DNA from: an uncultured Pseudomonadales bacterium
Lineage (GTDB): Bacteria > Pseudomonadota > Gammaproteobacteria > Pseudomonadales > UBA7434
Reading direction: 5' to 3'
NCBI GenBank assembly: GCA_943788835.1
Contig: CALSRU010000004.1
Span: 428,300 to 492,299 of the forward strand
Length of the DNA stretch: 64,000 bases
Position 1 is the first letter of the stretch; each line of letters starts with the position of its first letter. This document shows positions 25,525-62,054 of this stretch, piece after piece. The position numbers and the translations under genes were made by a program. The notes beneath the pieces were generated by a model that saw only the letters and a list, made by a program, of their open reading frames with translations, was not told the DNA's origin and did not search any database.

Positions 25525-26988
25525 TTACTTCACTTTACGGCTTGCTCTAACGATACTGGCAAACCCTGCAAATAATGCCAACATGCCTGCTACGCCCATG
25601 ATCGGAACATTAACCGACTCTACACACTGCGCTTGATCTACCGCTGGTAAAGTGCCGGGGATAACCCATCCCTGCGTCCAATCGTTCTCACAGTCACGTA
25701 CAGCACCGATAAACTCGACTGAATCAAAGAAAGTATCGCCAGTAATCAATGCATCAGAAGTGGGCTGTTGAATCGCTTCGTTAAAGCCGTTGATATAACC
25801 GTTGAATGATGCTGTGTAGGCGACTGGGGCGTCACCAGCACTAAACGCTGAACCTAGATTTGGGCAGTCACCTACGGCTGAGAGTAAAGTCGATGTTTCA
25901 GTATCAGGGTCAAAACAATCGTGGCTTCCAGCCGTCATTTGAATAGCAACGTTAGCATAAGTTAATGCGTTGTTTTCGCGACTTTTAATGCCGTCCGATT
26001 TGTTACCGTCTTTATTCGAAGAACTGTTTGAGATGATCGAAATGTTGGCAACCTTGCCTGCTGCTGGCTCAAATGTTCCTTTACCATCCACTTCGAAGCC
26101 ACGATCGTGTGGCAAGCTTGCATCTTGGTAAACTAGAACATACTGGGCTTTACCGTCCCAGCCGCCAGTTACATCAAATGAGTCGTCCCGGTTGCTGGTA
26201 AGCACTAGGTTTTTAACGTTAACCGTACCACCGAAAAATTCGACGCCGTCATCTTGGTTGGCGTGCACTTGAATGTGGTTAACGTCCGTGCCGCTACCCA
26301 CACCTTGAAAGGCAATACCGTTAAACTCAGACACCGCAGAGAAATCGAATCCGGCATAAGCTAAAGTGGTGTACTGCAAAGTACCACTGCTGTCAGTATC
26401 ATTATCACCACCATACGTGCCGGTGCCGGCTTCTCCATATTTAACACACGTTCCAACCGAGCCGCAGTTATTAATACTCGCATAACCGTTTATGTAGAGG
26501 CCTCCCCATTGCGCACGTTGACCGCCGGTACCGTCCAGATCTTCCATCGAAGTCATACGAATGGGATTGTTGGCCGTACCAACCGCATTGATGTCTGAGC
26601 CACGATGAATGACGAGCAGGTCGGTTGAGCCGCCGCCGCCAGTACCAGCAATAGTAACGCCAGCGTTGATATTCAACGCCGAAGCATTGGCATCTGCAGT
26701 GACCGAGGCCACGATGGACTGGGCGTCTTCAGACTGAACATCAGTTTCGTTACCAATCTCAACTTTTCCATCAAGAACCCATAAAATGCCGCCGTTGGTG
26801 GCAGTTAGCGTAGGTGCTGGTCTCGCCAAATCGTAAACACCCGACAGTGCGCAAGCCTCGGTGGCCCCAGTAGCCGTGAGAGCTGCGGAAGCTGCTGCGA
26901 AGGTAGCAGTGTTTGTTGGGCAAGCAGCGTTGGCTGCACCCGCAGATATTGTCAGTATTGAAGCAGTTAAAATTGATAGATTACGCAT
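25525..26988 (-). CDS. Secreted beta-helix-like protein, probable partner of the TonB-dependent receptor
   Basis: A 487-residue exported protein. I chose ATG 26988, which has GGAG 8 nt upstream and starts the signal peptide (MRNLSILTASILTISAGAANA). The body is rich in Gly, Asn and Asp with short repeating strands. It includes GTANNPIRMTS, QWGGLYINGYASI, HANQDDGVEFFGGTVNVKNL and TSNRDDSFDVTGGW, a pattern typical of right-handed parallel beta helices. The C terminus has VPIMG, about 16 hydrophobic residues and a basic RASRKVK end, like the sorting tails of PEP-CTERM/IPTL-type proteins. It may therefore be anchored or sorted to the surface. A Pho-box promoter precedes it and the receptor gene lies just upstream. 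No enzymatic motif is seen. Binding of a phosphorus compound is inferred from context only. Confidence 0.65.
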   Translation of the reverse strand: MRNLSILTASILTISAGAANAACPTNTATFAAASAALTATGATEACALSGVYDLARPAPTLTATNGGILWVLDGKVEIGNETDVQSEDAQSIVASVTADANASALNINAGVTIAGTGGGGSTDLLVIHRGSDINAVGTANNPIRMTSMEDLDGTGGQRAQWGGLYINGYASINNCGSVGTCVKYGEAGTGTYGGDNDTDSSGTLQYTTLAYAGFDFSAVSEFNGIAFQGVGSGTDVNHIQVHANQDDGVEFFGGTVNVKNLVLTSNRDDSFDVTGGWDGKAQYVLVYQDASLPHDRGFEVDGKGTFEPAAGKVANISIISNSSSNKDGNKSDGIKSRENNALTYANVAIQMTAGSHDCFDPDTETSTLLSAVGDCPNLGSAFSAGDAPVAYTASFNGYINGFNEAIQQPTSDALITGDTFFDSVEFIGAVRDCENDWTQGWVIPGTLPAVDQAQCVESVNVPIMGVAGMLALFAGFASIVRASRKVK

Positions 26989-27231
26989 AAGAGTACTCCG
27001 GTAATTTAGGTTAATGTAAGCTCTTGCTCCTAACATTTTCATGCCGATAGCAATGAGCCCAAATTCTTTTTTGATAACATGAGTCGCTGGTTTCGACTGC
27101 GCAAAAGTGCACTTTTCATAATTGTGCTGATCACTCCGCTTCCTGTGAAAAACGCCATAAGATTCATTGACATTAAACGGAGAAGTTGTGATGCGTGGGC
27201 ACTCGCGCCTGCGAACCTTAACTCGGAGAGA

Positions 27232-27287
27232 ATATTAGGCAGTGGCGATGACAGTTAAGCGAGTATTTGATTTCAGAATTGTGACGG
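27232..27287 (-). promoter_or_regulatory. Pho box and -10 of the secreted protein gene
   Basis: On the minus strand, four 7-mers start every 11 bp: CCGTCAC (27281-27287), CTGAAAT (27270-27276), TACTCGC (27259-27265, weak) and CTGTCAT (27248-27254, perfect). The spacers are AATT, CAAA and TTAA. TAATAT (27232-27237) lies 10 bp after the last unit, as in PhoB-activated promoters where the box replaces the -35. Confidence 0.7.
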
Positions 27288-27356
27288 CTAAGGGGACTTG
27301 AGAACCCCTTAGGTAAAATAGGCATATCAGCCTGAGTCGGTATTTCCTAATGACTG

Positions 27357-30128
27357 TTAGTATTGTTTCCAGGTGATGCTGAGGCCATAGGTTACACCCA
27401 CTTCATAATCGTCGTAAGGCAACCGAATATCAGCTAAGCTCGGATCACGAGCCGATTCGATCGACGGCGCCAAAAGAGCGGCCTTGCGTTCGACTCTTTC
27501 ATTCAGAATGTTTGTGACTTTAAATCCGAATTCGAAGACGGAATCCTCGATATAGAGTGAGCTCTTATAGTTGAAGTTTAGGCTGTTAAACGGTTGCTCA
27601 TAAACGGCATGCTTGTTTTTTCCATCGGCACTACGCGTGCTAATTAATCGTTCGGAAAAATGGTTATAGGCTAGGGAAACGGTATGTACATCACTTTCAT
27701 ACGTGAGTTGCAAATTATAGAGTTCATTGGATAACCCCTGCATGGGGCGCTCATCATTAAAGATAGGCGCTGTGAGTCGCGAGTCGATAACCTCCGAATC
27801 AATCAGCGTGGTATTAGCCGAGAGCATTATCCTAGACGATAAATAGTGTTTGATTTCAAATTCTAAGCCGCGATTTTTCGCACTATCTAAATTGACCCAG
27901 ACCAACTTAGGATCTTCGCCATCCGTCTCTTCGATTTCAACAGGGTCACGAATCGATTTTTTAAAATAAGTTAACCCAAAATAATTGCCTTCACCGTAAT
28001 ACCATTCATAACGAATATCAAAATTGGCTATGCGGGCGATTTTAAGTTTGGTATTACCAATGTACGTTTCGTCTTCATCAGGATTATAGAAAGATAATGG
28101 TGAAAGCTCGCGTAGGATGGGTCGGTTAACGGATTCACTATAGGCTGAGCGGAGAATCATGTTGTCGTAAAAATCCCATGATATCGATGTAGAGTTGAGT
28201 CTAAATGTTTCGGATGGGGCCGAAATGAGTTCTGCTAGCGTTGCTCTGCCTCTATCCAATGCGTTCTGATCGGCCTCACTCAAGAGCACCCCATCGGTAA
28301 GTGGATTAATGAGCGATTTACTTGAGCGCTCATGGCGGGTGCCAAGAGTGAAACGGAAGTTGTCAGTTAGCTGGGCATCCCAAAGCACATAAAAAGCTTC
28401 AGTCTCAAATGTCCCTACAAACCCCTCAGGAGTGTCGGGGTCACGAAAAAAACCTTCGTCTAAATCAATATGGCCAGTCGCTTGAATGGATGTAGCGGAT
28501 GCGCCGGTAAATAAATAGCAGCTATCATCAGTAGCGGCTGCCTGGCCAATTGCGCAAGCTGAAGTATCAGTCAGTTGCGTCAGTGGCAGGAGTGCAGCGT
28601 TCGCATCAAGGGCCAGCAAATCAGTATTGAAGGTATATTGGAAACTATCGAAAACCCGTTGTTGCTCCATGCGAGCATAGCCCATCTTTAACTTGAGGGC
28701 GGAGAGAAAGCTAGCATTGCTAGAGAGCGGTAGCGAAAGGTCAAATCCATATTCGGTGGTTTTATCATCAAGCTCAGTCCAGGAACGGCTTGGGTCCGAA
28801 GTCGAAACGAACACCGGCGCTCCATTACGAATATTCTGTTCAATGACGCGCGAGTCAGGGGTATCCCTGCTCGAATTAATTTGACTATAGCGCCAATTCA
28901 GCTCACCCACCGCAAGATAATGTTGACCGGCTAGCTGGCGTAACATGATTTCGTTTTCAGTCCAGACGAGTTGCTCTTGTTGCACCAATAGCTCTTCGAA
29001 TGGATTGGCTTCGAGCCCGCTTGAGGCCAAATCAGAGCTTTTTCTTACCTGCATTAAAGTCAAATTAATTAAATGCGTGCTGTCAATGTCGGCGCCGGCC
29101 GAGAAAAGTAGATTACTGTTGATCGTCCTCTGTGTCAGATTTCGATCGCTGACACGAGCAATGCCGTTGGCTTCATCTGCGCTCACCAAGATTTCATTGC
29201 GAATCGATTCAATACTATCAACAAACACTCGCCTTTCGCTGGCGGTCTGATTGGCGAGATCGAGATAATCGTAGCGTGTTATCTTGCGCATGCGATTGCG
29301 CCATTTGTTGCTCAGTGAGCCCGAAGCAATGAACCCCAACTCTAACCGATCGCTGAATTGGTAACGTGCGCCACCGGCCATTGCATACGACCAGTCGTAG
29401 GGGTTTGAGTCACTCTGGAGCTGCCAATTGTTATTAAAGCTCAGCGTAATTGCGTCTTGCTTCGCTCCACTAAGCGGGGAGTTTCTAACAAAAGTTCGCT
29501 TGTAATTTTTATCGTTTGCTTTAACGATGGCGGGGCGGCTACGTTCACCATCGTCATAACCTAACCAGTCGCGGCCGCTCCCTGCGTAAGTCAGTCCTGA
29601 TTGACTTGTACTGATATCGTTGTAGCTAGTTGATGTTTTTATTTTAAAAAATGGCTCATTGGGTACGGCGGCGGTGCGAATGTCGACTATACCGCCAGAG
29701 AACTCAATACCGTAATTAGCTGAATGGGTTTTTTGGACCAGTACATTTTTCACAACCGAAGTATCAAAAAGATCGAGAGGTACGGCGCGTTGCAGTGGCT
29801 CAGGGCTAGGCATCGATGTACCGTTGACATAGGTTGAAGAATACCGTTCGCCTAATCCCCGCACATAAATAAACCGACCACCGACCAAACTTAAGCCTGG
29901 TAAGCGCTTGAGCGCCGCACCGATATCGCTATCACCTGCTATGGACATGTCATCGGCGTCGAGTAATTCGGAGACTTCAGAAGTTTGAAGTTTCTCATCC
30001 GGAGTAAACGCCTTGATCACAACTACTTCCTCCATTTGTTGTCCAGCAACCGAGGTGCTCAGAGGCATGGCCAATAAAATGGCGACAGTGTTTGATCGCC
30101 AACTTTTTAATAAATTAGAAACGGGCAT
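27357..30128 (-). CDS. TonB-dependent outer-membrane receptor
   Basis: A 923-residue outer-membrane active transporter. It has a signal peptide (about residues 1-29) and a TonB-box-like MEEVVVIKAF. The plug domain shows GAALKRLPGLSLVGGRFIYVRGLGERYSSTYVNGT, then PLDLFDTSVVKNVLVQKT and GGIVDIRT. The long C-terminal beta-barrel ends in a strand finishing LSITWKQY with an aromatic residue. ATG 30128 is preferred to the TTG two codons upstream. Receptors of this family take up ligands too large or scarce for porins. Here a Pho-box candidate upstream, the PhoB-PhoR genes on the other side and a Pho-boxed secreted protein downstream point to a phosphorus-containing ligand. That is inference, since the sequence itself does not reveal the ligand. 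Confidence 0.9.
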   Translation of the reverse strand: MPVSNLLKSWRSNTVAILLAMPLSTSVAGQQMEEVVVIKAFTPDEKLQTSEVSELLDADDMSIAGDSDIGAALKRLPGLSLVGGRFIYVRGLGERYSSTYVNGTSMPSPEPLQRAVPLDLFDTSVVKNVLVQKTHSANYGIEFSGGIVDIRTAAVPNEPFFKIKTSTSYNDISTSQSGLTYAGSGRDWLGYDDGERSRPAIVKANDKNYKRTFVRNSPLSGAKQDAITLSFNNNWQLQSDSNPYDWSYAMAGGARYQFSDRLELGFIASGSLSNKWRNRMRKITRYDYLDLANQTASERRVFVDSIESIRNEILVSADEANGIARVSDRNLTQRTINSNLLFSAGADIDSTHLINLTLMQVRKSSDLASSGLEANPFEELLVQQEQLVWTENEIMLRQLAGQHYLAVGELNWRYSQINSSRDTPDSRVIEQNIRNGAPVFVSTSDPSRSWTELDDKTTEYGFDLSLPLSSNASFLSALKLKMGYARMEQQRVFDSFQYTFNTDLLALDANAALLPLTQLTDTSACAIGQAAATDDSCYLFTGASATSIQATGHIDLDEGFFRDPDTPEGFVGTFETEAFYVLWDAQLTDNFRFTLGTRHERSSKSLINPLTDGVLLSEADQNALDRGRATLAELISAPSETFRLNSTSISWDFYDNMILRSAYSESVNRPILRELSPLSFYNPDEDETYIGNTKLKIARIANFDIRYEWYYGEGNYFGLTYFKKSIRDPVEIEETDGEDPKLVWVNLDSAKNRGLEFEIKHYLSSRIMLSANTTLIDSEVIDSRLTAPIFNDERPMQGLSNELYNLQLTYESDVHTVSLAYNHFSERLISTRSADGKNKHAVYEQPFNSLNFNYKSSLYIEDSVFEFGFKVTNILNERVERKAALLAPSIESARDPSLADIRLPYDDYEVGVTYGLSITWKQY

Positions 30129-30323: not shown

Positions 30324-30368
30324 ATCGTAGATACGGTATGTTACGATCGCATGACAGTTTGATTAACG
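30324..30368 (-). promoter_or_regulatory. Candidate Pho box and -10 of the TonB-dependent receptor gene
   Basis: Minus-strand 7-mers spaced by 11 bp are CGTTAAT (30362-30368, weak), CTGTCAT (30351-30357, perfect) and TCGTAAC (30340-30346, partial). TACGAT (30324-30329) follows after 10 bp as a possible -10. One unit is perfect and two match about 4 of 7, so this is weaker than the sites at pstS and 27248. Confidence 0.45.
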
Positions 30369-30448: not shown

Positions 30449-30482
30449 TGGTAACGATAATGTCACATTAATATATTAGGTT
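30449..30482 (+). promoter_or_regulatory. Candidate Pho box of phoB
   Basis: TGGTAAC (30449-30455), spacer GATA, then ATGTCAC (30460-30466) give two units 11 bp apart. TAGGTT (30477-30482) is a possible -10 placed 10 bp later. It fits the known autoregulation of phoBR by PhoB. Confidence 0.5.
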
Positions 30483-30575: not shown

Positions 30576-31289
30576 ATGTCTTTTCAGAAAGTTTTAATTG
30601 TTGATGATGAAGCTCCTATTCGGGAAATGATCAAACTGGCTTTGGAGCTTGAGGGATTTACTTGCCTGCAGGCACAGTCCGCTTCTGAAGCGTTGCCCAT
30701 CATTGTCGATCAGCGGCCCGATCTGGTCGTGCTCGATTGGATGATGCCTGATGTCAGCGGCCTGGATTTTTTGCGCCGGCTAAAGCGGGATGACAACACG
30801 CGTGAAATTCCGGTGATTATGTTGACCGCTAAAACCGAAGAAAACAGCGTAGTGAATGGCTTGGACGCTGGTGCCGACGATTATATTAGTAAGCCTTTTA
30901 GGCCGCGTGAACTGATTTCACGTATTCAGGCCATTATGCGCAGGATCAGCAAAATGACGGGTGATGGTCTTTTGGTGGTTGGGGAATTGTGCCTAGATAT
31001 GAAGGGGCATTGTGTGTTCGTCGATGACCAGTTAGTGACCATGGGGCCAACCGAATACAATCTACTCAAATTCTTTATGGGTCATCCCGACCGGGCTTAT
31101 TCACGAGCACAGCTACTTGATCAGGTTTGGGGCAGCAATGTGTATGTGGAAGAGCGCACCGTCGATGTACATATTCGTCGTTTGCGCAAAGCTCTAAAGC
31201 CCGCCGCAGATGGAGTTGACTGCGGGCGCTTTATTCAGACAGTGCGCGGTGCTGGCTATCGGTTCTCGGCGCGTCTAGCGTCTCTCTAG
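30576..31289 (+). CDS. phoB: Phosphate regulon response regulator PhoB
   Basis: A 237-residue OmpR-class regulator. The receiver domain has acidic residues Asp10/Asp11, the phosphorylation site Asp54 in VVLDWMMPD and Lys in MLTAKTEE. The C-terminal winged helix (LDMKGHCVFVDDQLVTMGPTEYNLLKFFM to YVEERTVDVHIRRLRKAL) binds Pho boxes. Phosphorylated PhoB recruits RNA polymerase to promoters lacking a good -35. phoR follows after 123 bp and pst genes lie downstream, which confirms the assignment. Confidence 0.96.
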   Translation: MSFQKVLIVDDEAPIREMIKLALELEGFTCLQAQSASEALPIIVDQRPDLVVLDWMMPDVSGLDFLRRLKRDDNTREIPVIMLTAKTEENSVVNGLDAGADDYISKPFRPRELISRIQAIMRRISKMTGDGLLVVGELCLDMKGHCVFVDDQLVTMGPTEYNLLKFFMGHPDRAYSRAQLLDQVWGSNVYVEERTVDVHIRRLRKALKPAADGVDCGRFIQTVRGAGYRFSARLASL

Positions 31290-31412: not shown

Positions 31413-32771
31413 ATGCGTTCATTGTTTCAAAGTACACTTTTGCAGCTCGCTTTGTTCGCAAGCTTGGGGCTAGTGGTTGGCTACGAATTATCGAGCATTT
31501 GGGCAGGGTTGGCGCTTGCGGCTGTTATTTACATTGCGATTATGTTGCTGAATTTTCGGCGGGTTTCCGATTGGTTGTTGTTGGATGCGCGGGTCGAGAT
31601 ACCCGTGGCGAATACTTTTTGGACCACCATTATGGACCAGATATCGCGAATCATTCGGAAGTTAGAGGTTGAAAATTCCGCACTGAAAGCCGACGTAGAT
31701 TTTTTTAAAGACTCTTTTGAGGCGTTGGATAGTGCTGTGGTCGTGATTGATGAGCGTGGCGAAATTGATTGGGCAAATGTGGCAGCCCAAGCCTTGCTAG
31801 GTGTCGCAATAGCTCGTGATAAAGGCGAACTGCTGGTTAATTTGATACGTGCCCCCGAATTTATTAACTATCTCGATAGCGGGGACTTTTCCAAACCGCT
31901 CAAGTTGCATTCTCCCGTTGATCCGCAGTTGAGTTTAGAGATCCAAGCGACACCCTTTCGGCATGAATATGTATTAATTTTTGTTCGTGACGTCAGTGAG
32001 CTTGCTCACTTAGAGAGTATCCGTCAAGATTTTATTGCTAACGTGTCGCATGAGCTACGCACACCATTGACTGTGATTACAGGCTATCTTGATATTATTA
32101 AGGGGCGCGATGATCAGATGCCTCCGGCGATGCTGCGAGTAGTGGACCAAATGCTCGAGCAGTCACAGCGAATGGATAGCATGGTCAATGATCTCATTTG
32201 GTTGTCGCGCCTCGAGACTTTACCTGAGGGGCAAAAAACGGAGCTGATTCCATTAGCGGGCTTAGTTTTTGGTTTGATAGAGGAGGCGCGGATCAGTGCT
32301 CCTGATAAAGCGGTCAGTTTTAAGCTTGACCAATCAACTGAAGGAGCTTCGTCAGGCTCCGTGGTTGTATCTAGCGAAGGCCTCGCGCTTGCAGCCGTTG
32401 ATAATCGTGTTGCGATCCGAGGTAACTACGACGAGCTGCGCGCTGCTTTTTCCAATTTACTCCAAAATGCAATTAAGTATACGGCCGTTGATGGTTGTAT
32501 AGAAATTATTGGCTCTTGGCACCGGGATGGCTTCCAGTTGAAATTTAAAGACAACGGCATTGGTATCGACCCTGTTCATCTACCGCGTCTGACCGAGCGC
32601 TTTTACCGGGTTGATGATAGTCGAACATCAAGTACAGGAGGCACCGGCTTGGGGCTCGCTATCGTTAAGCATGTGTTAATTCGGCATCAAGCGGAGTTAC
32701 ATGTGTCGAGTACGGAGGGGCATGGCTCTTCTTTTACCTGTGTTTTTCCCGCCCACCTCGTGACCAAGTGA
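31413..32771 (+). CDS. phoR: Phosphate regulon sensor kinase PhoR
   Basis: A 452-residue histidine kinase. Two N-terminal hydrophobic segments (about residues 5-46) anchor it with almost no periplasmic loop, as in E. coli PhoR, which senses phosphate through Pst and PhoU. A PAS domain (about 95-190) is followed by the HisKA helix with His213 in VSHELRTPLTVITGYLD. The ATPase domain has N (AFSNLLQNAIKYT), G1 (FKDNGIGID) and G2 (STGGTGLGLAIVKHV) boxes. It phosphorylates PhoB when phosphate is scarce. Confidence 0.96.
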   Translation: MRSLFQSTLLQLALFASLGLVVGYELSSIWAGLALAAVIYIAIMLLNFRRVSDWLLLDARVEIPVANTFWTTIMDQISRIIRKLEVENSALKADVDFFKDSFEALDSAVVVIDERGEIDWANVAAQALLGVAIARDKGELLVNLIRAPEFINYLDSGDFSKPLKLHSPVDPQLSLEIQATPFRHEYVLIFVRDVSELAHLESIRQDFIANVSHELRTPLTVITGYLDIIKGRDDQMPPAMLRVVDQMLEQSQRMDSMVNDLIWLSRLETLPEGQKTELIPLAGLVFGLIEEARISAPDKAVSFKLDQSTEGASSGSVVVSSEGLALAAVDNRVAIRGNYDELRAAFSNLLQNAIKYTAVDGCIEIIGSWHRDGFQLKFKDNGIGIDPVHLPRLTERFYRVDDSRTSSTGGTGLGLAIVKHVLIRHQAELHVSSTEGHGSSFTCVFPAHLVTK

Positions 32772-32840: not shown

Positions 32841-32887
32841 TGGTCATCAAAGTGTCACAATTCGGTCGTATTATTCTTTCTAGTTAT
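32841..32887 (+). promoter_or_regulatory. Pho box and -10 of pstS
   Basis: Three 7-mers lie exactly 11 bp apart: TGGTCAT (32841-32847), GTGTCAC (32852-32858) and CGGTCGT (32863-32869), with AT-rich spacers CAAA and AATT. TAGTTAT at 32881-32887 is a suitable -10, 11 bp after the last unit. Confidence 0.75.
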
Positions 32888-32970
32888 CAACAAGAGGCGA
32901 ATGGCGGCAGTCACTAAGCTTATTTCGCTCCAGTTATTTATCTGAAGTCCATATCCTTGAGGGTTTGTTT

Positions 32971-34014
32971 ATGAAAAGAGTCATTTTTCTTGGTGCGATT
33001 GCAGTCGCGATGTCTAATTGGGCGACTGCCAATTCAGAGCGGGATTACATCGAAGTGGTAGGTTCCTCGACGGTCTATCCATTTGCTACAGCAGTAGCCG
33101 AAAAATTCGGTAAGGGCACGAGCTTCAAAACGCCCAAAATTGAGTCAACCGGGTCGGGCGGTGGCATGAAACTGTTTTGCAAAGGAATTGGCACAGGCCA
33201 CCCTGACATCACCAATGCGTCGCGACGTATCAAAATCAATGAATACAACATGTGCCATGAGAACGGCGTGAAGGACATTGTAGAGGTGCTAATTGGCTAC
33301 GACGGGATTGCATTCGCCAACTCCAAAGATTCGCCACAGTACTCATTGACGCGACAGGACATCTATCTGGCACTCGCCGCAGACATACCGAATCCTGATG
33401 GTAGCGAGACCTTTGTGAAAAACTCCAGTATTACCTGGCAAGATGTGAACGATGCGCTGCCTGCCGTAAAAATTGAGGTTTTAGGCCCGCCACCAACCTC
33501 TGGCACAAGAGATGCTTTTGTTGAATTGGCTTTAGAGGGGGGTTGTAAGGCATATCCATGGGTAAAAGCGTTGAAAAAAGTCAATAAATCCGAGTACAAA
33601 AGTCGCTGCCATACCATTCGTGAAGATGGAGCCTATATTGAGGCAGGCGAAAACGACAATCTTATTGTGAGCAAACTTGAAGCAAATCCATCGGCTTTCG
33701 GTATTTTTGGATTTAGTTTCTTAGATCAAAATGCTGAAAAAGTTCAGGGTTCACTGGTAGACGGCTTCGCACCCACCTTCGAATCGATCGCTGATGGCGA
33801 CTACAGCGTATCCCGCCCACTTTACTTTTATGTTAAAAAAGCGCATGTCGGCGTGGTCCCTGGGATAGAGCAATTTTTGCGTGAATTCACTAGTGAGGGC
33901 GCTTGGGGGGAAGACGGATATTTGGCCGATAAAGGGATGATCCCACTGAGTTTTGAATTGCGCACCAATATGGCAAAATCAGTCAAGTCACTTAATAATC
34001 TTGTGCTGAATTAG
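32971..34014 (+). CDS. pstS: Phosphate ABC transporter substrate-binding protein PstS
   Basis: A 347-residue periplasmic phosphate-binding protein with a signal peptide (MKRVIFLGAIAVAMSNWATA). The binding loops are visible as EVVGSSTVYPFATAVAEKF, ESTGSGGGMKLFCKGIG, DITNASRRI and PPTSGTRDAFVEL. ATG 32971 has GAGGG 7 nt upstream; the frame is also open from a TTG two codons earlier. It is the first gene of the pst operon, controlled by the Pho box, and is separated from pstC by a terminator that should raise pstS transcript relative to the rest. Confidence 0.95.
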   Translation: MKRVIFLGAIAVAMSNWATANSERDYIEVVGSSTVYPFATAVAEKFGKGTSFKTPKIESTGSGGGMKLFCKGIGTGHPDITNASRRIKINEYNMCHENGVKDIVEVLIGYDGIAFANSKDSPQYSLTRQDIYLALAADIPNPDGSETFVKNSSITWQDVNDALPAVKIEVLGPPPTSGTRDAFVELALEGGCKAYPWVKALKKVNKSEYKSRCHTIREDGAYIEAGENDNLIVSKLEANPSAFGIFGFSFLDQNAEKVQGSLVDGFAPTFESIADGDYSVSRPLYFYVKKAHVGVVPGIEQFLREFTSEGAWGEDGYLADKGMIPLSFELRTNMAKSVKSLNNLVLN

Positions 34015-38765: not shown

Positions 38766-40049
38766 TTATCCAAATATCCCTTTAAAGAAAAAGAAGAATA
38801 AGATGGCTAGGGCAGCGCCGGCCGGTAATGTAATTACCCAAGACATAAAGATGGTGCCAACAACCCGTAAGTTTAACGCGCCAATACCCCGTGCCATGCC
38901 AACGCCTAGTACCGCACCAACTAAAGTATGGGTAGTTGAAATTGGTAGGCCCGTTGCGGATGCAAAAACAACAGTGGTGGCTGCACCTAGCTCGGCCGCG
39001 AAGCCACGGCTTGGTGTAAGCTCTGTAATTTTTCGTCCAATGGTGGCCATTACTTTAAAGCCGTAAGTCGCAAGACCAATGGCAATGCCGGAAGCCCCCA
39101 GGAGTAAAACCCAGCTGGGCAGCGCGGATTTGGCAACAATAACCCCTTCGTTTGTAATGACACCAACTACCGCGGCTAACGGACCAATGGCATTCGCTAC
39201 GTCGTTAGATCCATGGGCAAATGCCATTGCACACGCAGTGAATATCATTAAGACGCTAAATACTTTTTCTACATTAACAAATCGGTTTTGAGAGGGGTCA
39301 ACCGGCTCCACTTTAATGTTACGAAGCAGTAAAATACCCAGCCCAGCGACAACAAGTCCCACCAATGCAGCCGTGGGCAGTGCATTGGCAAATTTACTCT
39401 CGAAACCATAGTCCACTGCAACGCCAATATGCTTAAAGCCCTTCAGCAGAGTGACCATTGCAATCATAAAGCCGACGGCAAAAATATAATACGGAACGTA
39501 TTTTTTTGCATTTTCAAATGGCGTGGCAGTATTAATTATCAGCCGCTGCACGCTCATAAATAACCCGAATGAAATGACGCCGGCAAGAACGGGCGACACA
39601 ACCCAACTGGCGACAATTTGCGATACTTTCCCCCAATTTACAGCATCAACCGAAATGCCCACTGCCGCAAAACCAACGAGGGCGCCTACGATAGAGTGCG
39701 TGGTTGAGACCGGCCAGCCGGCCATGCTCGCTATCAAAAGCCAAATGCCCGCAGCTAAAAGCGCAGAAATCATGCCATAGACTAATAGCTCTGGTGAGCC
39801 GTCTAGGGCGGTTGGATCGAGTATACCCTTGCGAATTGTGGCGGTGACTTCGCCGCCTGCAAGGTAGGCACCGGCGAACTCGAAAACCATCGCGATTGCG
39901 ATGGCTTGTTTAACCGTTAGTGCTCGTGCGCCAACTGACGTGCCCATAGCGTTGGCAACGTCATTGGCTCCAACTCCCCAGGCCATAAAAAAGCCAAAAA
40001 CGCAGGCGAGTATTAACAGTATGTGGCCATGCTGAGCTATGACTTCCAT
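38766..40049 (-). CDS. pit: Low-affinity inorganic phosphate transporter, Pit family
   Basis: A 427-residue permease with about ten membrane helices. The duplicated PHO-4 signature is present as WGVGANDVANAMGTSVGARALT near the N terminus and MAFAHGSNDVANAIGPLAAVVG in the second half. WPVSTTHSIVGALVG and LPISTTHTLVGAVLGVGMARG are the paired loops. Pit proteins import metal-phosphate with protons or sodium. The gene is downstream of the DUF47 gene on the same strand (127-bp gap). Confidence 0.93.
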   Translation of the reverse strand: MEVIAQHGHILLILACVFGFFMAWGVGANDVANAMGTSVGARALTVKQAIAIAMVFEFAGAYLAGGEVTATIRKGILDPTALDGSPELLVYGMISALLAAGIWLLIASMAGWPVSTTHSIVGALVGFAAVGISVDAVNWGKVSQIVASWVVSPVLAGVISFGLFMSVQRLIINTATPFENAKKYVPYYIFAVGFMIAMVTLLKGFKHIGVAVDYGFESKFANALPTAALVGLVVAGLGILLLRNIKVEPVDPSQNRFVNVEKVFSVLMIFTACAMAFAHGSNDVANAIGPLAAVVGVITNEGVIVAKSALPSWVLLLGASGIAIGLATYGFKVMATIGRKITELTPSRGFAAELGAATTVVFASATGLPISTTHTLVGAVLGVGMARGIGALNLRVVGTIFMSWVITLPAGAALAILFFFFFKGIFG

Positions 40050-40176
40050 CGTAATTCCTTACACTTAATATGCGGGCCGTTGCCGCAACGACTTACTCAT
40101 AATTTGAGCAAGGTTGAGTGTTATTAGTAAAAGTATGCATCGCTCAGAGCTGCTGCACAGTTTATTGGTTGTTCGG

Positions 40177-40854
40177 TTATTTTGAGATAAGTAGTTGCAT
40201 TAACGAACCTACCTTTTGAGCTCGGTCGGCAAGATCACCGATCCATTCGATGACTTGGTATAAAAACATCGCTTCAATAGGGGGTAATTGATCCTCTATT
40301 TTGAACAGCTCCGCTCGCACTTGTACTTGCAATCGGTCGTTTTCATTTTCTAAGTTGTCAAGCTCCGTTATTAAGCCCTGAACTAGGTCAAGTACATTGC
40401 CTTTGAAACCAGCTTCTACAAGCTCATCCATTTCTTGTATAGCTCTTAGCGCCTGAGCGGATGTTGCAACGGCCGTCTTACTGTATTCAAGCATGATCGA
40501 GGCAATGCTGTTGGGTATAACTATTTTTCTACCTAGCATCAAGCCACTAATGTCTTTGGCTCGATTGGCAATCTTATCTTGTCGTGTAATCAGATTCAGT
40601 AAGTCGGAGCGATTCACCGGCAGCCAAAGACTTTTAGGAAGGTGCAGGCGAATATCCTTTTTAATTCGGTCAGCGTCACTTTCCAAATCGCTAATGGTTT
40701 GCTGGATAGTTGTCGCTAGCTCCCAATCATTATTTATACTGGCTTCGATGAAAGGGATGAGCTGTTCGGCACATTCTTGCGCTTTTACAATATGATCTTG
40801 AATTGGGCTAAAAGGCGATTGTGCAAAGAGATTGCCGAATAGATTGCGTGCCAT
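40177..40854 (-). CDS. DUF47/TIGR00153 phosphate transport regulator
   Basis: A 225-residue helical PhoU-like protein. It starts with LFGNLFAQSPFSPIQDHIVKAQECAEQL and has SDADRIKKDIRLHLPKSLWLPVNRSDLLNLITRQDKIANRAKDIS, the hallmark of the DUF47 (YkaA-like) family that is almost always coupled to pit. It is thought to control Pit activity. GGGAG lies 6 nt before the ATG. It probably forms an operon with pit. Confidence 0.92.
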   Translation of the reverse strand: MARNLFGNLFAQSPFSPIQDHIVKAQECAEQLIPFIEASINNDWELATTIQQTISDLESDADRIKKDIRLHLPKSLWLPVNRSDLLNLITRQDKIANRAKDISGLMLGRKIVIPNSIASIMLEYSKTAVATSAQALRAIQEMDELVEAGFKGNVLDLVQGLITELDNLENENDRLQVQVRAELFKIEDQLPPIEAMFLYQVIEWIGDLADRAQKVGSLMQLLISK

Positions 40855-59174: not shown

Positions 59175-62054
59175 TTGAGTTTGAATAGCTACGGTAAAAA
59201 TCCACTGGTTCACAGTGATAGAACGCTCGGTGACCACCGCGTTGATTGGGTGGCAAGTTTTTGTGTGCGCGCTATGCGCCCCTTGATTATTTGTCGAGGG
59301 CCCATCCGCAAAGAGGCAATGGATGTTTTTTGTGAAATGGGAATTGAAGATTACGGTATTTTACTGTCTGAGAAAGACTCTATCACCTATCCCAACGCGC
59401 TGTCACCGGAACTGCGAATTATAAAAAATTCAAGCCGTATCCATCGGGTACCCGACTACAGCGGAGCCAGCAAAGAAGAGCGCGTGCAGCGGATTGAGCA
59501 GATTATTAAGATCGCTCATGAAAACAATTATGATTCGATTTTTGCCGGCTATGGTTTCATGGCCGAAGACGAAGGCATGGTAGCTAGCATGGAAGCCGCA
59601 GGGCTGATGTTTATCGGCCCTTGTTCTCAAACCGTTCACTCGGCTGGCCTAAAAGATGAAGCGAAAAGAACGGCATTGAAAGTCGGTGTGAGCGTCACCC
59701 CAGGCATTGATAATGCTACGGCTTTGGCACTGCTGCGTAAACACCCCTCCCAAGAAGCATTAGAGGCTTTGGTGGACAAGCATAAGCTAGTGGTCGACCG
59801 GGCCGCTCTGACTGATCAAAGTATTAACCTGACTGCTAAGGCTGATGCCATTTTGGCTGCGGGTTATAGTGCAGGCGTTGATCTTTATACGATCGCCGAG
59901 CTGCAAACAGAAATCGAGCAAGCCGTTATCGACATGTACGATAGCTACCCCGATAACCGTATCCGACTCAAGGCCATCGGCGGCGGTGGTGGCAAGGGGC
60001 AGCGTATACTTGCGGCGCCTTCTTCATTCGACGGCGACCGGGCAGCACAAATAAAATCCGCTGCTGCACAAGCACCGAGCTGCGTACTAGAAATTCTTAA
60101 TGAAGTAAAAACTACGGGAGTGGGCGATAACAAAAACGTTCTCGTGGAGCTTAATATTGAAACGACACGCCACCAAGAAATTCAAGTGGTCGGCAACGGC
60201 AGTTGGTGTGTCACGATGGGTGCGAGAGATTGCAGTTTGCAAATGCACGAGCAGAAACTTTTGGAAGTTTCATCCACTCACGAATCAATCGTGGCCTCCA
60301 TTCAAACTGAAAAGAATTCATTAGCAAACGGGGCCGGGAGTAAGGCCGCGCTTGCTACGTTAGAGCAAGATCTAATCACCCTCGATGCGATGGAGGACGA
60401 GGCGGCTCGTTTTGGCGCCGCGGTAGGGCTTGACTCGGTTTCTACCTTCGAATGCATTGTCGATCGGGGCAACCATTTTTTCATGGAAATGAATACCCGT
60501 ATTCAGGTTGAGCATCGAGTTACGGAGCTGTGTTACGAGCTTGAATTCGTCAACCCTGACAATGCCAACGAGAGTTTCGTGGTAAGTTCGCTCGTTGAGT
60601 TAATGGTTTTGTTAGCAAAGCACGGTAAACGCTTGCCCAAGCCGACACGATTGGTCCGTAAGAATAGCTCGGTCGAGGCGCGTTTAAACGCCACTAACGC
60701 TGCACTGCAGCCACATGCCGGCGGTATGATCGAGTGGTGGTCTGGATCCCACCCACATGAAATACGAGATGATCAAGGTATTTCATTGCCTAACCCTGAT
60801 ACGGGCGTATTCATGAAGTATAAGCTAGCTGGAGCCTATGACAGTAATATTGCGCTGTTGTTAACGCATGGCGACGACAGGCTCAATAGCTACGAGCGCT
60901 TGGCTGAAATTATTCGGCAAACGAGCATTACGGGTGAAGACCTCAGCACCAATATCGATTTTCATTACGGTCTAGTGAATTGGTTTATCGGCACGAACAT
61001 TGAGGCCCGCCCAACCACTAAATTTATCGTGCCTTACCTGACAGCAGTGGGCCTACTCAAACAGGCAGCTGCAAATATTGATCTGAGCTATATTTTTCAC
61101 GCTACGGGTGAAAAGTTTGCCGCTCAAGGTGAGTCAGCTGAGGATCAGTTGGTATTGCGAAAAATTGTTGAGCGAAAAACATCCCTTATTTTGCGACCCA
61201 TCGAAATTTTATTCGACAGTCCTCATTTACTAGCTGGCTGGCTTAGCGTGCATCATGAGGCATTTAGTATCGGTTTAGATAAAAGCGTGACGTGGAATTC
61301 AAATCCGGTTGAATTGCTCGCTGATCTGTATCACTTTTTAAATATGGACTTTGAACCGAGTCGTTTCGCTCAAAATCTTATCTGGGATCATGATCAAGCG
61401 ATATTGAGTAGCGCACTAGATTTTTACCAAGAGCTTAATGAGCGCTTAGGTACAAATGAGTTTGCTGAAATAAACGCGCTGCTGCACAATCAAAAAGTTC
61501 CAGCAAATTCTGCAATGAGTGACAAACAATGGCAGGAAGTACAAGCTGCTCATCGTGGCTTCCAAGCTGGCCTCAATGTGCTAAAACTACTGCCTTATTT
61601 AGCGGCTAGTACTGAGTTTTATGGTCTGTCGGTAGCCGATGATTTGAGCATTTCAATTCCTCCGCATTTACTCGATGAGTCATTGCAAACTGAAATGCAG
61701 AAAGTTTTGGCACCGCCACCTACCGCAAAGTCCGATGAGATAATAGCGGTTTCTGGCGGTATGTTTTATGCCCGAGAAGCGCCAGGTATGGATGCCTACG
61801 TTAATGCAGGCGACCATTTTGAAGCAGGGGATGTTTTATATATTGTTGAGGTCATGAAAATGTTCAACAAGGTCACGGCGCCGTTCTCAGGCACTGTCGT
61901 CAAAAGCTTAATAGAGGGGGACGGCATGATCATTTCAAAAGGCCAAGCGTTGTTTAATGTTAAGCCCGATGAGGAATTCGTTATAGACGACCCCGGTAAA
62001 TTGGCGGCGCTGCGAAAAAGTAATGCCAACTTATTCTTAGGCAGCAATTCATAA
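59175..62054 (+). CDS. Biotin carboxylase-biotin carboxyl carrier fusion, divergent
   Basis: A 959-residue enzyme that carboxylates its own biotin using ATP and bicarbonate. The biotin carboxylase part begins MRPLIICRGPIRKEAMDVF. It shows AGYGFMAEDEGMV, an ATP-grasp glycine loop GGGGKGQR (about 268-275), RDCSLQMHEQKLLEVSS and MNTRIQVEHR (439-448, where the usual proline after His is Arg). About 90 residues separate the N-terminal Rossmann part from the glycine loop, much more than usual. Residues 600-870 are a long region without a clear domain. The C terminus is a biotinyl domain with Lys895 in VEVMKMFNKV. The start is TTG, with GAGGA 7 nt upstream. It acts with the upstream beta subunit. 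Confidence 0.85.
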   Translation: MSLNSYGKNPLVHSDRTLGDHRVDWVASFCVRAMRPLIICRGPIRKEAMDVFCEMGIEDYGILLSEKDSITYPNALSPELRIIKNSSRIHRVPDYSGASKEERVQRIEQIIKIAHENNYDSIFAGYGFMAEDEGMVASMEAAGLMFIGPCSQTVHSAGLKDEAKRTALKVGVSVTPGIDNATALALLRKHPSQEALEALVDKHKLVVDRAALTDQSINLTAKADAILAAGYSAGVDLYTIAELQTEIEQAVIDMYDSYPDNRIRLKAIGGGGGKGQRILAAPSSFDGDRAAQIKSAAAQAPSCVLEILNEVKTTGVGDNKNVLVELNIETTRHQEIQVVGNGSWCVTMGARDCSLQMHEQKLLEVSSTHESIVASIQTEKNSLANGAGSKAALATLEQDLITLDAMEDEAARFGAAVGLDSVSTFECIVDRGNHFFMEMNTRIQVEHRVTELCYELEFVNPDNANESFVVSSLVELMVLLAKHGKRLPKPTRLVRKNSSVEARLNATNAALQPHAGGMIEWWSGSHPHEIRDDQGISLPNPDTGVFMKYKLAGAYDSNIALLLTHGDDRLNSYERLAEIIRQTSITGEDLSTNIDFHYGLVNWFIGTNIEARPTTKFIVPYLTAVGLLKQAAANIDLSYIFHATGEKFAAQGESAEDQLVLRKIVERKTSLILRPIEILFDSPHLLAGWLSVHHEAFSIGLDKSVTWNSNPVELLADLYHFLNMDFEPSRFAQNLIWDHDQAILSSALDFYQELNERLGTNEFAEINALLHNQKVPANSAMSDKQWQEVQAAHRGFQAGLNVLKLLPYLAASTEFYGLSVADDLSISIPPHLLDESLQTEMQKVLAPPPTAKSDEIIAVSGGMFYAREAPGMDAYVNAGDHFEAGDVLYIVEVMKMFNKVTAPFSGTVVKSLIEGDGMIISKGQALFNVKPDEEFVIDDPGKLAALRKSNANLFLGSNS

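Follow-up and report, generated by a model that had tools for sequence, protein, structure and literature searches.

The stretch of DNA analysed here (the window; 64,000 nt from an uncultured Pseudomonadales bacterium) contains a pho locus in which phoB and phoR are divergent from a gene for a TonB-dependent receptor (TBDR) and are followed by pstS, further pst genes and phoU, the pst and phoU genes being named by eye. After phoU come two genes on the other strand (38766-40854), also named by eye, one for a Pit-type phosphate transporter and one of DUF47/PhoU-like type. The TBDR gene is succeeded on its own strand by the gene for a 487-aa secreted protein, here called ElpS-like, and the 368-nt gap between the two holds a hairpin and an array of Pho half-sites with a -10 element. 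The features are listed in Table 1.

Table 1. Features of the pho locus and of the receptor/ElpS-like gene pair, in window coordinates.
Feature	Position	Strand	Remarks
ElpS-like secreted protein gene, 487 aa	25525-26988	minus	signal peptide by eye; predicted right-handed beta-helix
Predicted leader	26989-27230	minus	about 242 nt, to ATG at 26988
-10 element TAATAT	27232-27237	minus	10 bp past half-site 4; 4.6 bits
Pho half-site 4, CTGTCAT, proximal	27248-27254	minus	10.7 bits, reached by 0.005% of window positions
Half-site 3 position, TACTCGC, degenerate	27259-27265	minus	-6.3 bits, equalled by 20% of window positions
Pho half-site 2, CTGAAAT	27270-27276	minus	3.4 bits, reached by 0.87% of window positions
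Pho half-site 1, CCGTCAC	27281-27287	minus	6.9 bits, reached by 0.12% of window positions
Hairpin CTAAGGGG-N9-CCCCTTAG	27288-27312	minus	between TBDR stop and Pho box; no U run
TBDR gene, partner of the ElpS-like gene	27357-30128	minus	Pfam Plug and TonB_dep_Rec_b-barrel
TBDR Pho box CGTTAAT, CTGTCAT, TCGTAAC	30324-30368	minus	11-bp period; TACGAT 10 bp on
phoB Pho box	30449-30466	plus	14.7 bits, rank 2
phoB	30576-31289	plus	NCBIfam TIGR02154, 317 bits, above cut-off
phoR	31413-32771	plus	NCBIfam TIGR02966, 364.9 bits, above cut-off
pstS Pho box and -10	32841-32874	plus	rank 1 both alone (17.4 bits) and with the -10 (28.6 bits)
pstS	32965-34014		named by eye from translation

On the minus strand the four heptamers of the array start exactly 11 bp apart (27287, 27276, 27265 and 27254) and TAATAT follows the last of them after a 10-bp spacer, both as the initial annotation of this DNA had read them. 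Its description of a four-unit Pho box is accurate for the register and wrong for the third unit. Since one window position in five scores as well, TACTCGC is no real half-site, and because it fails the motif the array is better described as a register of four units of which three are good half-sites.

The Pho box consensus is a direct repeat, CTGTCAT-N4-CTGTCAT. An 18-bp PhoB matrix seeded with this consensus was trained by expectation-maximisation on 41 phoB and pstS upstream regions from genomes of the same order, members of the genus among them; this genome and the congeners G007 and G008, which have a close copy of the gene, were kept out of the training set. The direct repeat was retained, and one of the 41 regions (phoB of G009) lacked a good site, its best reaching 6.0 bits. 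The -10 columns, by which TAATAT was scored, came from 40 training promoters. Scoring of this kind had been proposed in the initial annotation, and it favours the array: the dimer of units 1 and 2 reached 14.2 bits, rank 4 of 127,966 on both strands of the window and outscored only by the sites of pstS, phoB and the TBDR gene, and all four units scored together took rank 1 of 127,890, whether or not the -10 element was included. The TBDR box stood at 14.5 bits (rank 3) and, with its -10 element, at 18.0 bits (rank 3). Units 3 and 4 form a dimer that is weak alone (5.6 bits, rank 48 in the window). A 34-bp model comprising the dimer, 10 bp and the -10 element gave 11.7 bits for units 1-2 (rank 4) and 2.4 bits for units 3-4 (rank 31), values for which the -10 spacing, exact though it is at 10 bp, cannot be called "ideal" for either dimer. 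The array thus resembles the canonical PhoB promoters of pstS and phoB in its 11-bp CTGTCAT-like direct repeat, in the -10 element at 10 bp and in the adjacency of phoBR-pst, and differs from them in its degenerate third unit and in a strongest dimer that is distal rather than beside the -10 element.

CTGTCAT-like words with an 11-bp period might also occur by chance, without any function for PhoB. One unit of the four is degenerate, the score of the units 1-2 dimer is attained in 8 of 3,000 dinucleotide shuffles of the intergenic region, and sites of 12-13.6 bits are present elsewhere in the window (24023, 49544 and 60838), that of 12.1 bits (60838-60855) falling within an open reading frame of the opposite strand. 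Against these points stand the first rank of the array in the window, its setting within the pho locus, its conservation in G008 and the recurrence of such boxes before homologous genes, and a chance resemblance is considered extremely improbable.

A protein match at E≤0.001 was found in 15 of the 57 genomes searched, this genome counted. In G007, where the protein is 98% identical, the Pho box is nearly the same and half-site 1 reads GCGTCAC. The G008 protein is 48% identical to that of the window, and there half-site 4 reads CTGTCAC (six of seven positions identical) and the -10 element TAAGAT (five of six), with the 10-bp spacing kept. Units 1-3 share 12 of 33 positions with G008, in which the register of half-site 3 holds CCTTCAT and the good dimer is that of units 3 and 4 (12.2 bits, shuffle p 0.015). 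As judged from the two sequences, the strong dimer is shifted between the window and G008, with the register and the -10 element retained. The intergenic DNA as a whole is identical at 143 of 368 positions. The receptor/ElpS-like pair of G008 is not divergent from phoB but is placed between that gene, which the contig end truncates, and phoR, indicating that the pair has moved within the pho locus. The matrix score, the pho-locus setting and the conservation of the proximal unit and -10 element support a PhoB-type promoter.

The hairpin abuts half-site 1 on its upstream side, has a fold z of -3.42 and is identical to its G008 counterpart at 20 of 24 positions. The pattern AAGGGG-N7..10-CCCCTT was found at the hairpin site in G000, G007 and G008, the three genomes with a close copy of the gene, and at three other places in these genomes. 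It had no match in the four other congeners searched (G002, G003, G004 and G009, the third-numbered of them, G003, being only 78% complete); in these four the ElpS-like gene has no close copy, and two of them have weak partial matches. Because it has no U run, the hairpin is not a standard terminator, and its identity as an intrinsic terminator is doubtful. A promoter/terminator scan of 26900-27420 listed one site resembling a terminator and two weakly resembling promoters; since the scan required loops of 3-8 and a T run, it could not have listed this hairpin, which has a loop of 9 and no T run. The hairpin may mark or protect the 3′ end of the receptor message, and a message started at the Pho promoter would not include it.

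The leader had been put at about 240 nt and called unusually long for such a promoter, leaving room for RNA-level control. Its predicted length is close to that figure, yet falls inside the range of homologs: for the 39 with a matrix hit at p≤0.01 upstream of the start, the median distance from dimer end to the start of the longest frame was 93 nt and the longest was 234, and the same rule gives about 227 nt for the window (27270 to the ATG at 27042), at the long end of that range. Leader length by itself is therefore no argument for RNA control. A riboswitch, attenuator or sRNA target in the leader, which that length might suggest, is unsupported by the remaining evidence: Rfam had no match in the 64-kb window, leader folding is unremarkable (z = -1.28, a stability equalled or exceeded by 26 of 200 shuffles) and conservation is low, only 87 of 243 positions being shared with G008. 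Such an element is judged very unlikely.

The downstream gene had been described as one of unknown function, a description that no longer fits, since it is recognisably ElpS-like by similarity to ElpS-type proteins and by its TBDR partner. Pfam and NCBIfam gave no match at E≤0.1 for the window protein, Pfam gave none above cut-off for four homologs, and no solved structure matched profile A3 by sequence at E≤1. A structure model built from 45 aligned sequences had a mean pLDDT of 85.1 and a pTM of 0.87. Foldseek returned no match against the PDB at E≤0.001, and alignment of the Foldseek chains with VIA-align placed NosD, tailspikes, alginate epimerases and pectate-lyase-like proteins best, with Z up to 21.4. 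From this model the protein looks like a right-handed parallel beta-helix; since VIA-align gave only the beta-helix class, across many unrelated families, no enzyme activity is claimed. Identity is about 34-35% to the ElpS-type proteins of two Phenylobacterium MAGs with an ElpS-type locus setting; both loci contain a T2SSC-cluster gene, which in one of them (L092) is Pfam T2SSC and comes after the TBDR gene. The likeness to ElpS rests on these two copies, Caulobacter ElpS being compared by description only.

The window protein reads N-A-A-C rather than a lipobox, and the G007 and G008 proteins have no lipobox either; for want of it the protein is named ElpS-like and not ElpS. A simple lipobox pattern, which gives some false and some missed calls, was matched by 67 of 92 homologs. 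At the C-terminus is a tail of VPxMG-hydrophobic-basic form (25525-25640), reading VPIMG in the window and G007 and VPVMG in G008. NCBIfam had no match for the tail of the window protein, the G008 tail gave a sub-threshold MYXO-CTERM match, and the genome has two exosortase-family genes; since the tail matches no sorting-signal model above cut-off, a link to a sortase is a guess. Elsewhere in the family, a locus of G014 (L035, 7672-10503) has a single 943-aa reading frame with two tandem ElpS-like domains, and in many alteromonad relatives the frame is 880-1370 aa long, which by length only points to two or three copies.

Caulobacter ElpS is reported to be induced by phosphate starvation, to co-occur with a TBDR and to be bound to the cell surface; extracellular alkaline phosphatase activity rose when ElpS was overproduced but did not fall when it was deleted, and the TBDR CC0171 is reported as constitutive and not phosphate-regulated (PMC2996285). 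As in the ElpS/CC0170-CC0171 pair of Caulobacter crescentus, the secreted-protein gene of the window adjoins a TBDR gene, and the Phenylobacterium loci with a T2SSC gene match the order given for Caulobacter (PMC2996285). The window differs from the Caulobacter system as reported there in its order, TBDR then elpS, in its place beside phoBR-pst and not type II secretion genes (one T2SSC gene is found elsewhere in the genome), in a C-terminal tail instead of a lipobox, and in a TBDR gene with a Pho box where CC0171 is reported constitutive. A second comparison is offered by Flavobacterium FII, which according to PMC8115612 shares a phoBR cluster with a TBDT induced at low Pi, resembles ElpS and has weak pectate-lyase/polygalacturonase homology. 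The pair Fjoh_0546/Fjoh_0545 of Flavobacterium johnsoniae, both members of which are induced at low Pi, parallels the window in combining a TBDT and an ElpS-related surface protein in a phoBR cluster, and the homology noted for FII fits the beta-helix model; the difference is that the FII lipoprotein Fjoh_0546 is a Bacteroidetes lipoprotein (PMC8115612). The term "Pho box" is absent from the searched text of PMC8115612, and no description of Pho boxes before elpS-like genes was found in the literature searched, which largely comprised sources other than subscription journals.

Homologous loci were surveyed with the PhoB matrix. The 94 loci comprise 80 kept of 567 tblastn relatives and 14 stretches from a genome search, the latter including G007 and G008; the window itself is uncounted. 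Genes were excluded if they lacked a matching frame or offered fewer than 150 nt for scoring, leaving 92 elpS and 77 TBDR rows (L110 and L117 gave no elpS row). Since frames begin at the first possible start codon, some starts are too far upstream. Relatedness among many of the loci means that the rows cannot be treated as independent, and the counts, which include misses, are descriptive. An upstream hit at a shuffle p≤0.01 was present for 47 of 92 elpS-like genes (62 at p≤0.05) and lacking for 45; before receptors the figures were 11 of 77 and, at p≤0.05, 20 of 77. Among the 47 hits, which comprise 45 distinct 18-mers, 42 score at least 12 bits and five less, down to the 3.7 bits of L091, whose frame is probably not the true gene start. 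Sites of at least 14 bits lie upstream of 37 of the 92 elpS-like genes, compared with 12 on the reverse strand and one when the matrix is read backwards; 50 column-permuted matrices gave 0.38 on average and 3 at most. Of 230 other genes of the surveyed loci used as controls, 17 reached 14 bits, a set that is not clean, several high scorers being phoB-cluster, DUF3450-cluster or T2SSC-cluster neighbours. The survey turned up a phoB-cluster gene in 17 of the 94 loci.

A same-strand receptor gene adjoins the elpS-like gene in 75 of 92 rows, with elpS first in 61 and the receptor first in 14. Where elpS comes first, boxes at p≤0.01 precede it in 37 of 61 loci and precede the receptor in four. Where the receptor comes first, as in the window, the receptor has a box in seven loci at p≤0.01 (11 at p≤0.05) and elpS in six at p≤0.05 and only 4 of 14 at p≤0.01, the last count speaking against a PhoB promoter for the second gene. 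Expression of the ElpS-like gene might instead depend mainly on transcription reading through from the promoter of the TBDR gene, the internal box being a relic or auxiliary: the TBDR gene is directly upstream on the same strand and has its own Pho box, and three loci with short gaps (L034, L035 and L105) have a box at p≤0.01 before the TBDR gene only. The gap in the window, however, is 368 nt long and contains a conserved hairpin, the proximal Pho unit and -10 element are conserved in G008, and in two loci (L036 and L108) boxes at p≤0.01 precede both genes. Expression mainly by read-through is thus regarded as unlikely.

Taken together, these data suggest, with a probability of roughly 0.85, that 27232-27287 on the minus strand is a PhoB-activated promoter of the ElpS-like gene, and that it would serve as a phosphate-starvation switch for a surface phosphorus-scavenging protein. 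At low phosphate, phospho-PhoB supplied by the neighbouring phoBR genes would occupy the half-sites at their 11-bp spacing, of which 1, 2 and 4 are good, and, once bound, would replace a -35 element and bring RNA polymerase to TAATAT. Transcription would start about 7 nt past TAATAT and read through the leader of some 240 nt into the ElpS-like gene; the TBDR gene would use its own Pho box, with the conserved hairpin separating the two units. The products, a TonB-driven channel and its surface beta-helix partner, may then cooperate in gathering or releasing phosphorus compounds at the outer membrane. The putative promoter is a well-formed one of a known kind and in itself ordinary; the variation, as far as the sequence indicates, is in its internal position after a conserved hairpin and in the C-terminal tail that stands in for a lipobox. 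Its interest is that it ties, by sequence evidence, direct PhoB control to a surface protein unmatched in Pfam and NCBIfam and to its TonB-dependent partner.

The pair and its apparent PhoB control recur in many marine and other aquatic Proteobacteria. A tentative reading, given somewhat less than even odds, is that the ElpS-like/TBDR pair is a widespread system, directly PhoB-controlled, for outer-membrane phosphorus uptake in Proteobacteria, a counterpart of the Bacteroidetes PusCD, and that it has been rebuilt in this genus; if this joint reading held, a sorting tail at the C-terminus would have replaced an N-terminal lipid as the surface anchor, and the partner genes would have come under two separate PhoB promoters with a hairpin between the units. 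What the pair imports or releases under phosphate stress could be tested in culturable genera, among them Alteromonas, Idiomarina and Pseudoalteromonas, in which the matrix gave hits at p≤0.015 before the elpS-like genes. Among the surveyed loci, L064 (9197-11152) has a DUF3450 gene and then a MotA/ExbB-type gene downstream of its elpS-TBDR pair, and a gene of the same cluster as this DUF3450 gene lies downstream of the pair in L063, L065, L079, L080, L084, L089 and L111. A hit of at least 15 bits precedes the gene at the DUF3450 place in seven of these eight loci (none is listed for L063), and the DUF3450-cluster gene is perhaps a dedicated energiser.
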